A DNA stretch of 64,000 nucleotides from Arabidopsis thaliana (lineage: Eukaryota > Streptophyta > Magnoliopsida > Brassicales > Brassicaceae), in assembly GCF_000001735.4 (NCBI RefSeq), contig NC_003074.8:19289261-19353260 (forward strand), read 5' to 3'. Position 1 is the first letter of the stretch. Every line of letters begins with the position of its first letter. A program made the translations under genes and the position numbers. Positions 21,727-28,475 of this stretch are shown here, one piece after another. The notes under the pieces are model-generated. The model had not been told where the DNA came from. It saw nothing but the letters and a program-made list of their open reading frames with translations, and did no database searches.

Positions 21727-22767
21727 TCAATCCCTAAAGATCACAGCATCTGCAATCTCCATAAGCGGTTGCAATGACTCCGGCGTGAATTTTCTGGCGA
21801 AGAAATAGTCTAAACTCGAATTAGATCTCCGCAGAGAGTGAATCAGCTGCGGCGAGATCTCAGAGGCATCGTACGTGTGAGGATGACCACCAACACTACC
21901 GGTCCAATTAACACGTGTGAGTGTAAAGTGACTACATCCTTGAGGATCCTCAAGAGACAACAAAGTCGGAAAATAATGTTCTTCAGGGTAACAAGATTCA
22001 ACATCAAGGCATGGTAATTTGAATTTCCTCCATAGCTTTCTCTCTTTGATCACCATTAGAGCATGACGTTTCGCTAATACGAAGAACTGAGATCCAACAC
22101 GGAAGTCTTGGTACTGGATCTCAGGAAGCATCGCGTCGTCTCCTCTTGCGTTGTATCGTTTCAGAAGGAACGGTTCATCGGAGAGGATCTCGATGAAGCT
22201 TTGTTGATGATGATCGGAGAAGAGGTGGTTGTGGATGTAAGAGAAGGAATGGAGAGGGATACAGTGTTGTGAGATTAAAGCGAAATAGAGATTGTTAGGA
22301 TCGTCGAGGATTGCGTTTGCTAGTAATCGTCGTTCGGCGGAGATTAACGTCGGAGAAGCTCGTGCGGTTCTTCTCGCCGGGATGAACTTAGCGTTGATTG
22401 ATGAAGAATCGAGAAGAGGAGAGACGGAGGAGGTTGGATCTGCGTGGATGTAAACGTTGTAGAGATCTTGGTGACCTTGGAAGAAGCTTTCCCAGAGAGG
22501 TAAGAAGGTTAGATCGGAGTTTGTTAGGAAGAGGAAAGCGATCTTTGGGGGTGGATTTGGAGAGAGGGAGATGAGACGACGGTTGTTGTTGGTGGAGGAA
22601 GAGACGACGGCGCGGTGGAAGAGAGAGAGGTCGTCTAGGTCATCGGCGGTGGAAATGAGGGTAGAGGAAGAGAGAAGGATGTGTGGTGAGAGGATGAAGA
22701 GGAAGAAGAGAAGAGAAAGAGAGAGGAAGAGAGATAGAGAATAAACGAGTGTAGAAGATGAGAACAT
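21727..22767 (-). CDS. GNTL: Core-2/I-branching glycosyltransferase-like protein, plasmodesmal type
   Basis: A single-exon gene of 346 aa. Residues about 8-31 form one hydrophobic anchor (type II membrane topology), followed by a lumenal domain of the plant DUF266/GT14-like family: KIAFLFLTNSDLTFLPLWE, YNVYIHADP, NLYFALISQHCIPLHSF, GSQFFVLAKRHAL, CYPEEHYFPT and NWTGSVGGHPH. These match the branching beta-1,6-N-acetylglucosaminyltransferase fold. I recall At3g52060 described as AtGnTL, a plasmodesma-associated protein reported to affect callose and virus movement. Enzyme activity is inferred from family only. The 5' leader carries a CTT repeat. Confidence 0.9.
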   Translation of the reverse strand: MFSSSTLVYSLSLFLSLSLLFFLFILSPHILLSSSTLISTADDLDDLSLFHRAVVSSSTNNNRRLISLSPNPPPKIAFLFLTNSDLTFLPLWESFFQGHQDLYNVYIHADPTSSVSPLLDSSSINAKFIPARRTARASPTLISAERRLLANAILDDPNNLYFALISQHCIPLHSFSYIHNHLFSDHHQQSFIEILSDEPFLLKRYNARGDDAMLPEIQYQDFRVGSQFFVLAKRHALMVIKERKLWRKFKLPCLDVESCYPEEHYFPTLLSLEDPQGCSHFTLTRVNWTGSVGGHPHTYDASEISPQLIHSLRRSNSSLDYFFARKFTPESLQPLMEIADAVIFRD

Positions 22768-23492
22768 CTCTCTGTATACAACAACACAGAATTTCTCTGA
22801 GGAAGAAGAAGAAGAAGAAGAAGAAGATTGATTGAAATGAATGAGTTAGAAAAAATTCTGATGTGACAATAAAAAGGAAAAAGGGGAATAATGACGTCAG
22901 CAAAATGGGGACACGTGAAATTATTTTTAAAATTATTTGGGACAATCGACACAGTTGCTCTATCGCTATTTGTTTACGTGGGGCTGTTCTCTCTCTATTT
23001 ATATAATAATGAGATACGGTTTTTTCAGCAACCAGATTTTAAAGTTATCTGATTAAATCTAATAATAGGATAGAGATAGAGTCACAGAGACATGTTGTTG
23101 ACTTTATGACATTATTTTATTCTTTGCTTATCCACTCAGTCATCATTTATCTCACCAGTCAGACATAATGTGTTGTTGTTGTGAATTTGTAGATGCTTCC
23201 GACTATACCTGATTACCTGGCCATTCAGAATCGGTTTGGATCAAAAAATTTGGGTTTTCGGTTTAGAAATCGAAACAAACCGAATTAGTTGAAACGAACC
23301 GAATAGAAATTCGGCCAATTTGGTTTTGCATTGGCGTGTACCTTGTGACTACATGTGTGTGTGTTAGATGAGATCTATCCACCCATTTTTCAAATCATTT
23401 TTGTCGTTAAGCTATCAAGATTCTGATATTTTCCTGCTCACTTTTGATTCCCAAAACAAAAAACTTTCTTCAATTATTCTATTCATCTTCTC
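22768..23492. promoter_or_regulatory. Divergent promoter region of GNTL and the 114-aa gene
   Basis: About 725 bases between two divergent genes. It contains TGACGTCA (22891-22898, a bZIP/CRE-type palindrome) and ACACGTG (22911-22917, G-box core). No coding content is seen. Confidence 0.55.
22802..22825. repeat. (GAA)8 microsatellite in the GNTL 5' leader
   Basis: Eight GAA units on the + strand, read as CTT in the GNTL transcript, about 35-60 bases before its ATG. CT-rich leader repeats are common in plant genes and can affect expression. Confidence 0.85.
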
Positions 23493-23837
23493 ATGGCGGC
23501 TCTCTCCACCACCTTCTACTACCACCCACTCTGCACTAACCACCGTACAAAGAGACAAGCCTCAAGCAGACACGGAGTTAGATCTATGAGAGTGATGTCT
23601 TGTCGGAAGCAGAAATTACCAGAAGAGAATGAAGGAGTGATCCAGAGAACATTGAGAAGGATGATTTCAGAGGCTGGGAAGATTGGGAAGAATCTGAAGC
23701 CAGAGAAGAAGAAAGGAGACGTCAAGGACCTGATGCTTATGAGTCTCTCTTTTGCTGTTTATGTTTATATCTCTCAACTATTGGTTTGTGCTTACTTCTC
23801 CTGGCAACATCTCAGCTTCCCCAAATCTTCATGGTAG
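23493..23837 (+). CDS. Small putative plastid membrane protein, 114 aa
   Basis: A single exon of 114 aa. The N-terminus (MAALSTTFYYHPL, then RTKRQASSRHGVRS) is rich in Ser, Thr and Arg and lacks acidic residues, as in a chloroplast transit peptide. The middle is basic (IQRTLRRMISEAGKIGKNL). Near the end, LMLMSLSFAVYVYISQLLVCAY can span a membrane once. It corresponds to At3g52070. I do not recognise a functional domain; the location is inferred only from composition. It is divergent from GNTL. Confidence 0.8.
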   Translation: MAALSTTFYYHPLCTNHRTKRQASSRHGVRSMRVMSCRKQKLPEENEGVIQRTLRRMISEAGKIGKNLKPEKKKGDVKDLMLMSLSFAVYVYISQLLVCAYFSWQHLSFPKSSW

Positions 23838-23989
23838 TAGCTAAGCTAGCTCCTCCTTGTAAATTCTGCACAAATCAGTAATAAGATAAGAAATTCAATT
23901 CCGACATAGGAGAATTGAGAGTTGTGATCTTTCACTTTGGTCTTATATAATTGAATTGTTAAGCTTCTCATACCTCTTTATCTGCTTTA

Positions 23990-24576
23990 ACTCCGGCAGA
24001 AAAGGCAAACCAACCATTGCGATAACACTATCAACCAGTTAAGGCTCTTTGTTTTAGAGCCGAAAGGAGATGCAAGAGCCTCGGGCAGAGTCGCTGAGTA
24101 TGCCTTGAAAACCAAAACTTTGACCGTAATTGTTAGAAAGAAAGAGAGATTCCTAACCATTTCGTATTGGCCTCCTCCAATTTATCCTCCTTAAACAGAG
24201 AGCCCCATCCATTTTCCTTCTGTGTGCTGCACCAAACCTTTCCTCCATAGTCATATCACTGCGAGCTTTTCCCTGTACAATCCAACCTCTAAGTCAGCTA
24301 TAAGCAAAGAGCTTGGGATAAAAGCTTGGTTGTGGAGTGTTCAGGTAAGGAAACAAGAATCAGCAAATGATCTTAAAGAAAAAACGTTCCTCCTTTGTTT
24401 CATCAAATCCAACAACTTCAGCGTCATCTAACAATTCCGCTATAGATGGAACATTGGGAAAAAGAAGAGTTTCCATCTCTCCTATATGCTAAATTCCCAG
24501 CAAACATGCAAGAGCGCACGTTCACCAGACTTGATGCTGGAAACACCAATAGCTAAACCGGCCATTACTTGTATCT
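23990..24576 (-). pseudogene. Decayed copy of FKBP42 / TWISTED DWARF1 (TWD1)
   Basis: Three islands on the minus strand appear in the order of TWD1 (At3g21640, also called ULTRACURVATA2). 24576-24393 reads AGLAIGVSSIKSGERALLHV, then after small indels LFPNVPSIAELL and EVVGFDETKE, the end of the FK506-binding domain; an acceptor-like acag precedes it. 24272-24158 reads GKARSDMTMEERFGAAHRR, KMDG and, after a frameshift, LFKEDKLEEA, the start of the TPR domain, again after an AG acceptor. 24060-23990 reads KTKSLNWLIVLSQW and LVCLFCR, the C-terminal membrane anchor. The parental AGLAIGVASMKSG and LFWLIVLWQW are easily recognised. Intron positions seem kept, so it was a genomic rather than a processed copy. 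Stops, frameshifts and deletion of most of the TPR region make it non-functional. Confidence 0.85.
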
Positions 24577-25829
24577 CTGTTCATAGAGGACATTTCACTC
24601 CTTAGTTTTTAATCTTGTTTAAAGCTCTGTATACTAACATAAACATGCATGAATCAGCTTTAAAGCAACAAAAGAAAGAAAGGAAAACTCAATTTCTTTC
24701 CTCCCAAATATTCTTTTTCATTAGGTTCACATGAAACGCAAGATTTAAGACCTCAGCTTTACTATCAACTTTAGGTAGGTAAGACTACCTACCATTTTGA
24801 GAAGGCTCACAATGCAAAAATGGAACTCACCATCCTTGACTGATTCGGTTTCAGCTCCAGCAAACCAAAGTGTTTCTAATAAACTTGGCCGTGCATTGAA
24901 CCACGGAGTTCCAAAATCAATGTCTGTTTAAATCATTGGCCCCAGAATTTGAACTACACACAGAGTCACAGACATTCATTACGATGGTTGAATGAAATGG
25001 TCTTGACTAAGAAGTAAGAACAACTATGCACAATTGAGAAACTATTAGCTCGATTTCCAGAAACTATCACTATCGTAATATAAAAGTCCCAGGATCGACC
25101 AAATCGGACGAGAAAGACTCAATGAAGAAACCCCATAAAAACATGGTCGAAGTCAGTATAAACAAAATCAAGAGTTTGGTCGTCGTTGTGGATTTGGAGG
25201 AGAGGAGAGTGAGCTTACAGAGTATGAGAAGCGAGAAGCTCAGGGGAAGTGTGACTCGTCGTCGTCGTCTTCGAAGTCACTCACGACCATCGAGAGATCT
25301 GATGATTTTGGTAAAATATCAAAAAAGGACTTCAACTTTTCACTTAAGTCAAAACAAGCCCCTATAAATAAATTCTGTTATTTAAGCCTTGAGGCTTGAG
25401 CTGCGTCTTTGTTGTTCACTAGGAGAGTTATTTGAGCGGATAATTTACTAAAACTGAATGTCCATCTCCCAAACAAACATTTTACGTTTTCATGTTATAT
25501 AAAAGAATACTATATCGTTAGCTAGAATATTGTAGTTAAATATTAAAGTAGTGTATTTTACATTTTGTCTGAACTTTGTCATCTTTGTTTCATGAATGGT
25601 CAATGGTGAATAATGGGGAGAGAAGGAACGTGAATAAAGGGATCCACAAGTGTCTCCACCATTTTCTGAGTAAAAACAATCACATCCTTTCATTTTCAAA
25701 CCCCTAAACCAAATTGTAAAGTCAGAAAAAAAGAAAAAAAGAAACACACATACAAATCGAAAAGCTTTTCTTCATCTCCCACGTTACAATAAGCCCTAAG
25801 AACGAATAAGGCAACTACAGAGAGAAAAG
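24577..25829. other. Spacer with possible minus-strand transcript, and CHX28 promoter
   Basis: Upstream (minus strand) of the FKBP42 relic there is an exon-like block 24953-24831 bounded by gtgtag and gtgagt. Further up, 25360-25219 carries a short acidic open frame (MVVSDFEDDDD, 16 codons) ending near a gtaagc donor. Neither matches TWD1 that I can see, so this could be an unannotated non-coding or chimeric transcript. From about 25400 to 25829 the DNA is AT-rich and acts as the CHX28 promoter and leader. Confidence 0.4.
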
Positions 25830-28475
25830 ATGAATTCAACTACAACAAAAAACGTTTGTGGAGACAAATGGTACCTTAACCTAGACAGGCCAGAAGAGGC
25901 ATTGAAGATTCTTGTATTCATTGCCATTTTCGTCGTCCGAACTCTCCTCCATTATCTCATGAAGCCTCTAGGCCAACCTTACCTCACCACCGACTTTGCT
26001 GTATGTCAAATATCTTTTTGTTCTTTGTCTATCTCTTTTGATTTCTATATTAACTCAAATTTTCTATGCATCAGATAGGGCTAATTCTAGGTAATATTCC
26101 AAGGTTTCGAGGGGCATTCTCGGGGCCTTACTCTATAACCCTCAACAACATAATAGAATTTGGAATGATCTGCCATATGTTTGTCATGGGTCTAGAGATG
26201 AATCCAAGCGTTCTTCTCAGACCACCAACCAAAGATGCATTCATTGCCTACACAAGCATGATCACGACCTTTGTTCTCGCCTTTGTCACAACTCCTTTCC
26301 TCCACTATACCAAAACTTCTCCTTACATTTTCTCCCTCGCCCTCTCCCTCATGGCCTCAAGCACCGGTTCTCCTATCCTAACCCGCGTCATCGCCAATCT
26401 CAAAATCAGAAAATCCGATCTTGGAAAACTTGCATCAGCCGCAGGTGTCCATACGGACATGATCTCTACCTTGCTTTACTGCTTCGGCTTCATTTTCTTC
26501 CCTACGGAGAAACCTCTCGCTCGTCCTCTCCACAGATTCTTCAGAGCCCTCCTCATGTTTTGCCTCTTCCTCGCTCAGGTCACTTTCACTTCCATTGTAT
26601 CCCCAATCTTTCTTAATTGGGTCAACAACGAGAACCCTGAAGGTAAACCACTCAAGGGGTCACACCTTGTTATGTCCCTGGCATTTGTCGTCTTGATCTG
26701 CAGTTTCCCAACTTGGCCACCTGAATCAATGTACAACCCAATTCTCAGTGCATTCACGGCTGGTCTCTTCCTTCCAAACAAAGGAAGAATGTCGAAATGG
26801 ATCATCAACAAAATCAATTACTTGCTCAGCACGGTCTTCTACCCTATCTTCTTCTTCTGGGTTGGATTCATAATCCACATGAGAAACTTTGACATTACTG
26901 ACAAAATGGCGTGGGTAAGATTCTTTTCTCTTCTTGGCACTGTTATAGCCGGAAAAGTCACCGGAACAGTCTTGTGTGGTTTACTACTCGGTTATCATGT
27001 CCCGGAAACCGCATCCTTAGGACTGCTTTTGACCACTAAAGGCCATTTTCATGTCTACTTGGCAGCTTTAGCCATTCGGGTACCATCAAGCTTTCTCTTT
27101 ATGTTTTGTTATTTAAGCTATCATCAAAGTAAGATCTTTACTCTCTTTCTTTTTCGTTTGATGCAAATGCAGACTAACAGGGTGAAAAGTACGACCGGTG
27201 CATTGATCATATTTATCATTGTCTTCACGGTGGTCTACTCCCCATTCGTGGTCATGGACATCATCAAACGCGCTAGAAAGCGGGTGCCTGTGCACATCAT
27301 GGCGCTTCAATGGCTCGATCCAACAACTGAACTTCGGATCTTGATTGGTCTCCACGGTCCCCACAACATTGGTTCTACGCTCAACGTTATGGAGATCTGC
27401 CATGGTGGCCGTGAGCCGGGTTCCATATTCTATGCGACTGACATGGTGGAGTTGACTGATGAGATTGCAGCCACGCTGAAGAAGGGCGGAGGAGCCGGTC
27501 AGAGTAATGATTCAGTGACGGTAACGGATAGGTCGGTGACGGAAATGAGAGAGAGTATAACGGCAGCTGTGAATGGGTACGGAGAGCTCCGCAATGGACA
27601 AGGTGTGACAGTGCGGCGGATGCTGGCGTTGTCCACGTTTGTGACCATGGCCCATGACGTCTGCGGTTTGGCTGATGAACTTATGGTTTCCATTATAATT
27701 CTACCGTTCCATAAACGGCTGAATCCTGATGGTACTCTCGATGCTGGTCATGCTGGGTTCCGTCATGTGAACCGCAAGGTAATTGTTCCATCTCAGTAAT
27801 ACTCTGTTTCTTTCAGTTCTCAGAGAGATAATTTGGCATTTGTGTGTGCAGATTCTGAAGAACGCACCATGTTCAGTAGGAATTCTTGTGGATAGGTCGT
27901 TCGGGCAAACAGAAGAGGCATGGAGACCAGGAGCGTCCATGGGCATTGCTATAATATTCATAGGTGGCAGAGACGACCGAGAGGCACTAGCCTTCGCTGC
28001 ACAAGTGGCTCGACATCCTGCTGTGAAATTAAAGGTTATACGTTTCTTGGAAGACAAGAGCTCTCAAAACGCACAAAAACGAAGCAGCATCCTGAACAGA
28101 GCGAGTGTGGTAGATCAAGAGGAGGAAATGAAGCTTGATGATGAATGTTTTGCTGAGTTCTACGAAAGATACATAGCTGGAGGTGGAAGAGTGTCTTACA
28201 TGGAGAAGCATCTCACCAACTCCTCTGAGACTTTCACAGCTCTTAAATCACTAGATGGAGAGTATGGGCTGGTGATTGTAGGAAGAGGAGGGGGAAGAGC
28301 GAGCAGTGGGTTAACCACCGGCCTCAACGACTGGCAGCAATGTCCAGAGCTTGGTCCCATAGGTGACGTTCTTTCAGGATCAGATTTCTCACACAACACA
28401 TCAATGTTAATTATTCAGCAGCAGCGTACTCGGGGTCAGCTAGAAGGGCTTCATGATGACTTCACTATACTGTGA
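25830..28475 (+). CDS. CHX28: Cation/H+ exchanger CHX28 (CPA2 family)
   Basis: Exons 25830-26000, 26075-27079, 27173-27778 and 27852-28475 give 801 aa, the length I recall for CHX28 (At3g52080). The first roughly 420 residues form about a dozen membrane spans of a monovalent cation:proton antiporter (GLILGNIPRFRG, FVMGLEMNPSVLL, SLMASSTGSPILTR). The second half is the large cytosolic domain of plant CHX proteins with two Usp-like folds (ELRILIGLHGPHN, then SVGILVDRSFG, SMGIAIIFIGGRDDREALA). The usual membrane-embedded Asn-Asp pair after SAAxV is not seen; this copy reads SAAGVHTDMIS. The third intron (27080-27172, 93 bases) keeps the frame open. CHX genes are often pollen-expressed; the substrate is not predictable here. 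Confidence 0.94.

Follow-up and report, generated by a model that had tools for sequence, protein, structure and literature searches.

Results

Genes and features at the locus

We analysed a 64-kb stretch of the Arabidopsis thaliana genome (C3:19,289,261-19,353,260), which we call the window, and searched the whole genome (119.66 Mb, 7 contigs) for sequences related to parts of it. A minus-strand frame of 372 aa (21727-22845) carries a strong Core-2/I-branching enzyme domain (PF02485, E 2.8e-69). To its right is a plus-strand open frame of 114 codons, for which a Pfam search returned no match. Farther right is a plus-strand gene with a Na+/H+ exchanger domain (Pfam, E 3.4e-17), which we take to be CHX28 (AT3G52080), CHX28 being the name used in the initial annotation. 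PMC7582345 equates CHX28 with AT3G52080 and describes poor pollen germination in an insertion mutant.

Between the 114-codon frame and the exchanger gene, on the minus strand, lies sequence related to the TWD1/FKBP42 gene (Table 1). Five collinear blastn pieces align with C3:7618975-7621408, and together they cover sequence beyond the stop codon, parts of exons 7, 5, 4 and 2, intron sequence and the region upstream of the gene. The initial annotation had proposed a TWD1 pseudogene at 23990..24576 and had called the stretch towards CHX28 empty. These limits are too narrow, because blastn homology extends over 23926-25286, and the supposedly empty stretch holds part of exon 2 and the upstream blocks of the relic. 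A weaker gapped alignment runs past the blastn limit to ~25330.

Table 1. Parts of the relic, the blastn pieces that define it and the open frame to its left (positions in the window; parent positions on C3)
Feature	Position	Strand	Evidence
114-codon open frame, left of relic	23493-23837	+	
Whole TWD1/FKBP42 relic, very probably a duplicated, unprocessed pseudogene fragment	23926..25286	-	five blastn pieces
Post-stop remnant (parent 7618975-7619024)	23926..23974	-	42/49 aligned bases identical
Exon 7 tail: C-terminal membrane-anchor codons and stop region	23975..24051	-	67/75 identical
Junction of ~506-bp deletion	24051..24058	-	24057/24058 = parent 7619122/7619629
Intron 5, 5' part, GT donor kept	24058..24157	-	87/99 identical
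Exon 5, start of TPR region, AG acceptor kept	24158..24272	-	102/115 identical
Intron 4, splice donor lost	24273..24389	-	89/107 identical
Exon 4, end of FK506-binding domain, AG acceptor kept	24390..24577	-	157/186 identical
Intron 3, 3' part	24578..24742	-	121/157 identical
Junction of ~355-bp deletion	24742..24747	-	24742/24747 = parent 7620322/7620678
Exon 2 middle, small insertions	24747..24819	-	80.8% over 73 columns, E 3.2e-9
Exon 2 start, intron 1, exon 1 and leader region, strongly decayed	24820..25093	-	weak gapped alignment
Block upstream of TWD1 start codon	25094..25156	-	84.1% over 63 bp, E 6.2e-12
Block further upstream, leader or promoter	25186..25286	-	80.2% over 101 columns, E 5.4e-19
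Piece 1	23926-24057	-	blastn, parent 7618975-7619122
Piece 2	24058-24742	-	blastn, parent 7619629-7620322
Piece 3	24747-24819	-	blastn, parent 7620678-7620744
Piece 4	25094-25156	-	blastn, parent 7621183-7621245
Piece 5	25186-25286	-	blastn, parent 7621318-7621408

Two open frames run over the relic on the opposite strand, one of 109 aa (25038-25367, +) and one of 78 aa (24195-24431, +). By translation the latter is similar to TWD1 read in antisense, which simply follows from the homology, and neither frame is evidence of a gene. Beyond the upstream end of the relic, ~540 bases (25287-25830) separate it from the first ATG of the CHX-type gene, whose upstream region may thus have decayed TWD1 sequence as one component.

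Identity of the parent gene

A genome DNA search with 23990-24576 returned the window itself and a single other place, C3:7,619,059-7,620,158; the longer query 23850-25500 found the same second locus (C3:7.619-7.621 Mb) in five pieces. The top match to this locus scored 543 bits (E 6.9e-153). When 23801-25500 was shuffled 200 times with dinucleotide composition kept and compared with the same 9.9 kb, the best score was 35.6 bits, and 200/200 shuffles gave some match at E<=100. According to this search the genome holds one intact copy of TWD1, although an additional copy might have escaped it if short or very diverged, because only the best candidates were scored and very common words were skipped.

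The gene at 7.62 Mb is AtFKBP42/TWD1: its exon 4 is letter-for-letter identical to residues 102-163 of AtFKBP42 (PDB 2f4e). FKBP42 is TWISTED DWARF1, and twd1-1 is listed under At3g21640, in passages of PMC12484997. Peptides of the relic from two exon 4 frames also had AtFKBP42 as their first match in the PDB, at E 1.3e-6 and 1.3e-7. For the second peptide the next-best other FKBP in the PDB stood at E 0.12, and for the first no other FKBP appeared there up to E 10. Descent from a different FKBP or TPR gene is therefore rejected: FKBP42 came first in both the genome DNA and the PDB searches, and no other family matched better. As the initial annotation had it, the minus-strand sequence derives from TWD1, the only locus besides the window in the genome DNA search.

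A protein search of the genome gave 12 matches, in which pieces of the relic (E 1.8e-5, 4.1e-5 and 5.1e-4) were interspersed with further loci (best E 2.6e-5) that are presumably FKBP genes as well. The protein matches of the relic are short because frameshifts cut it into pieces, and it is the DNA match that decides the parent.

Structure of the relic and loss of coding capacity

The relic has the same exon and intron order as TWD1 (At3g21640), and its aligned bases are 77-89% identical, block by block. The three islands first recognized, namely exon 4, exon 5 and the exon 7 tail, do lie in the order and orientation claimed for them. The large deletion postulated alongside them is real, but there are two: one of ~506 parent bases, running from within intron 5 through exon 6 and intron 6 into exon 7, most of which is gone, and one of ~355, running from within exon 2, whose end is lost, through intron 2 and exon 3 into intron 3. 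Six bases at the first junction (24052-24057) have an ambiguous placement in the alignment. TWD1 is intact. In the relic, exons 3 and 6 are gone, as is most of exon 7; no start codon aligns and no open frame survives. In 24820-25093 there is no blastn piece, and a gapped alignment with many gaps aligns no start codon; both the loss of the start codon and the identity of this stretch rest on that weak alignment. Upstream, relic and parent have in common a GTAAG donor-like site in the block 25186..25286.

The predicted frameshifts were found in all three islands. Exon 4 carries two insertions of 1 bp each; from exon 5, 1 bp and 7 bp are missing; exon 7 has lost 17 bp and gained 2 bp at its stop codon. 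The splice acceptors were likewise said to be retained, and exons 4 and 5 are indeed both preceded by AG. Of the donors, GT persists after exon 5 and is lost after exon 4. Among the 121 codons compared in exons 4, 5 and 7 no in-frame stop codon was found, so that the open frame was lost through indels and missing exons. The relic is unable to make FKBP42 protein.

Intron and upstream sequence is retained and coding capacity is destroyed, as in a duplicated pseudogene. A processed pseudogene, made by reverse transcription, is next to inconceivable here: intron 4, parts of introns 3 and 5 and upstream sequence are all present in the alignment to the parent, and a retrocopy is rejected on that account. 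Because introns and upstream sequence were kept, copying took place at the level of DNA.

Divergence, selection and age

At codon positions 1, 2 and 3, 15/124, 10/127 and 25/125 sites differ from TWD1, and dN/dS over the 121 compared codons is 0.41 (95% interval 0.23-0.81). If the copy is neutral and its parent constrained, ~0.5 is expected. The observed value is thus compatible with neutrality from birth, without being proof of it, and the interval leaves room for some time under constraint before decay set in.

This bears on whether the relic for some time served an ancestor as a second, working TWD1 gene that was lost only later, in which case its decay would be recent relative to its birth. 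Such a history would agree with the third codon positions, which differ about twice as often as the first and second, with a point value of dN/dS slightly below 0.5, with the lack of in-frame stops in 121 codons and with the upstream region having been copied along with the gene. However, 0.5 lies well within the interval, and the same codon pattern arises if only TWD1 is under constraint. We consider a working phase rather unlikely.

The introns differ at 66/363 aligned sites (82% identity, 297/363), a Jukes-Cantor distance of 0.208 (0.158-0.263), with the three individual introns ranging from 0.132 to 0.274. An upstream block is identical at 81/91 aligned bases, which is not significantly more conserved than the introns (Fisher p 0.12), and a conserved promoter is accordingly rejected.

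With a rate of 7e-9 per site per year on both branches, the intron distance would make the relic very roughly ~15 million years old (11-19), a rough figure since the gapped alignment and any constraint on introns affect the distance. An age of ~15 million years would be earlier than the split of A. thaliana and A. lyrata, and the relic is therefore predicted in relatives.

Origin of the copy

Neither blastn nor tblastn of 731 window frames of at least 40 aa found anything common to the window and the 100 kb around TWD1 except the relic itself. With no common neighbours over this distance, the relic is a dispersed single-gene duplicate. Blocks from whole-genome duplication are common in A. thaliana, and both copies lie on one chromosome, as might be the case for a remnant of the last such event. 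Yet the relic stands alone, and 82% intron identity is too similar for an event of that age. A whole-genome duplicate is rejected for want of synteny within 100 kb around TWD1, and we rate this origin as extremely improbable.

A DNA copy of a single gene at a distant site, with no common neighbours, is also what capture and transport by a transposable element of the Helitron or Pack-MULE type would leave. Against this, the flanks (22850-23990 and 25287-25860) had no match elsewhere in the genome, and among 25 of the 45 inverted repeats found, none encloses the relic. Both are weak evidence, since the ends of an old element may have decayed and the search with 22850-23990 overlooks short diverged matches, having missed TWD1 for its own 65 relic bases. 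We regard element capture as distinctly unlikely.

Taken together, these observations very strongly favor a dead, DNA-level copy of TWD1, a reading with which the working phase and element capture overlap. What speaks against it is that splice acceptors and an upstream block have survived, that the 121 codons hold no in-frame stop and that the dN/dS interval is wide. A ~2.4-kb segment with the TWD1/FKBP42 gene, its introns and its upstream region would have been copied as DNA to a site far from TWD1 on its own chromosome, flanked by the 114-aa gene and CHX28. TWD1 is taken as the source and the relic as the derived copy. Exons 3 and 6 and most of exon 7 were probably deleted after copying, and the copy most likely drifted neutrally from birth.

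Discussion

As a dead duplicate of TWD1, the relic resembles the dispersed, fragmented, unprocessed plant pseudogenes described in passages of PMC7935947: it too is fragmented and intron-bearing, far from its parent and without common flanks, and nothing in that description distinguishes it. The same source gives non-processed pseudogenes as tenfold commoner than processed ones in A. thaliana. Published pseudogene tables or TAIR/Araport may already contain the relic. In the main texts of the open-access papers searched, there was no mention of the locus names AT3G52072 or AT3G52070, and At3g21640 was not found together with a pseudogene. For FKBP42 and pseudogene, the pseudogene concerned in the passages found there was ABCB8.

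Could the relic act as RNA? It might be transcribed, for example in antisense when transcription reads through from the 114-aa gene, and the resulting RNA might pair with TWD1 RNA and tune the control of auxin transport. About 20% (250/1332) of Arabidopsis pseudogenes are transcribed according to passages of PMC5187791, and passages of PMC6647327 report 129 predicted trans-antisense RNAs in Arabidopsis; neither AT3G21640 nor any AT3G52 locus occurs in the main text of the latter. The relic and TWD1 have exact runs of 28, 22, 20, 20 and 19 bases in common, some of them intronic or upstream. At the identity of the core, ~0.75 runs of at least 28 bases and 3.7 of at least 19 are expected by chance over 660 sites. 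The observed counts are close to this, so the long runs need no selection. Nothing in the sequence comparisons pointed to a function of the relic. A regulatory role of this kind seems very unlikely to us, and as far as the evidence from sequence reaches, the relic would be inert, plain intergenic DNA.

For work on TWD1 with short reads or probes, the relic is a possible second place, with 77-89% identity in the retained blocks. As dead gene duplicates go it is ordinary, of the usual plant pseudogene type. TWD1 would once have been duplicated and the copy would have died, which accounts for the sequence separating the 114-aa gene from CHX28.
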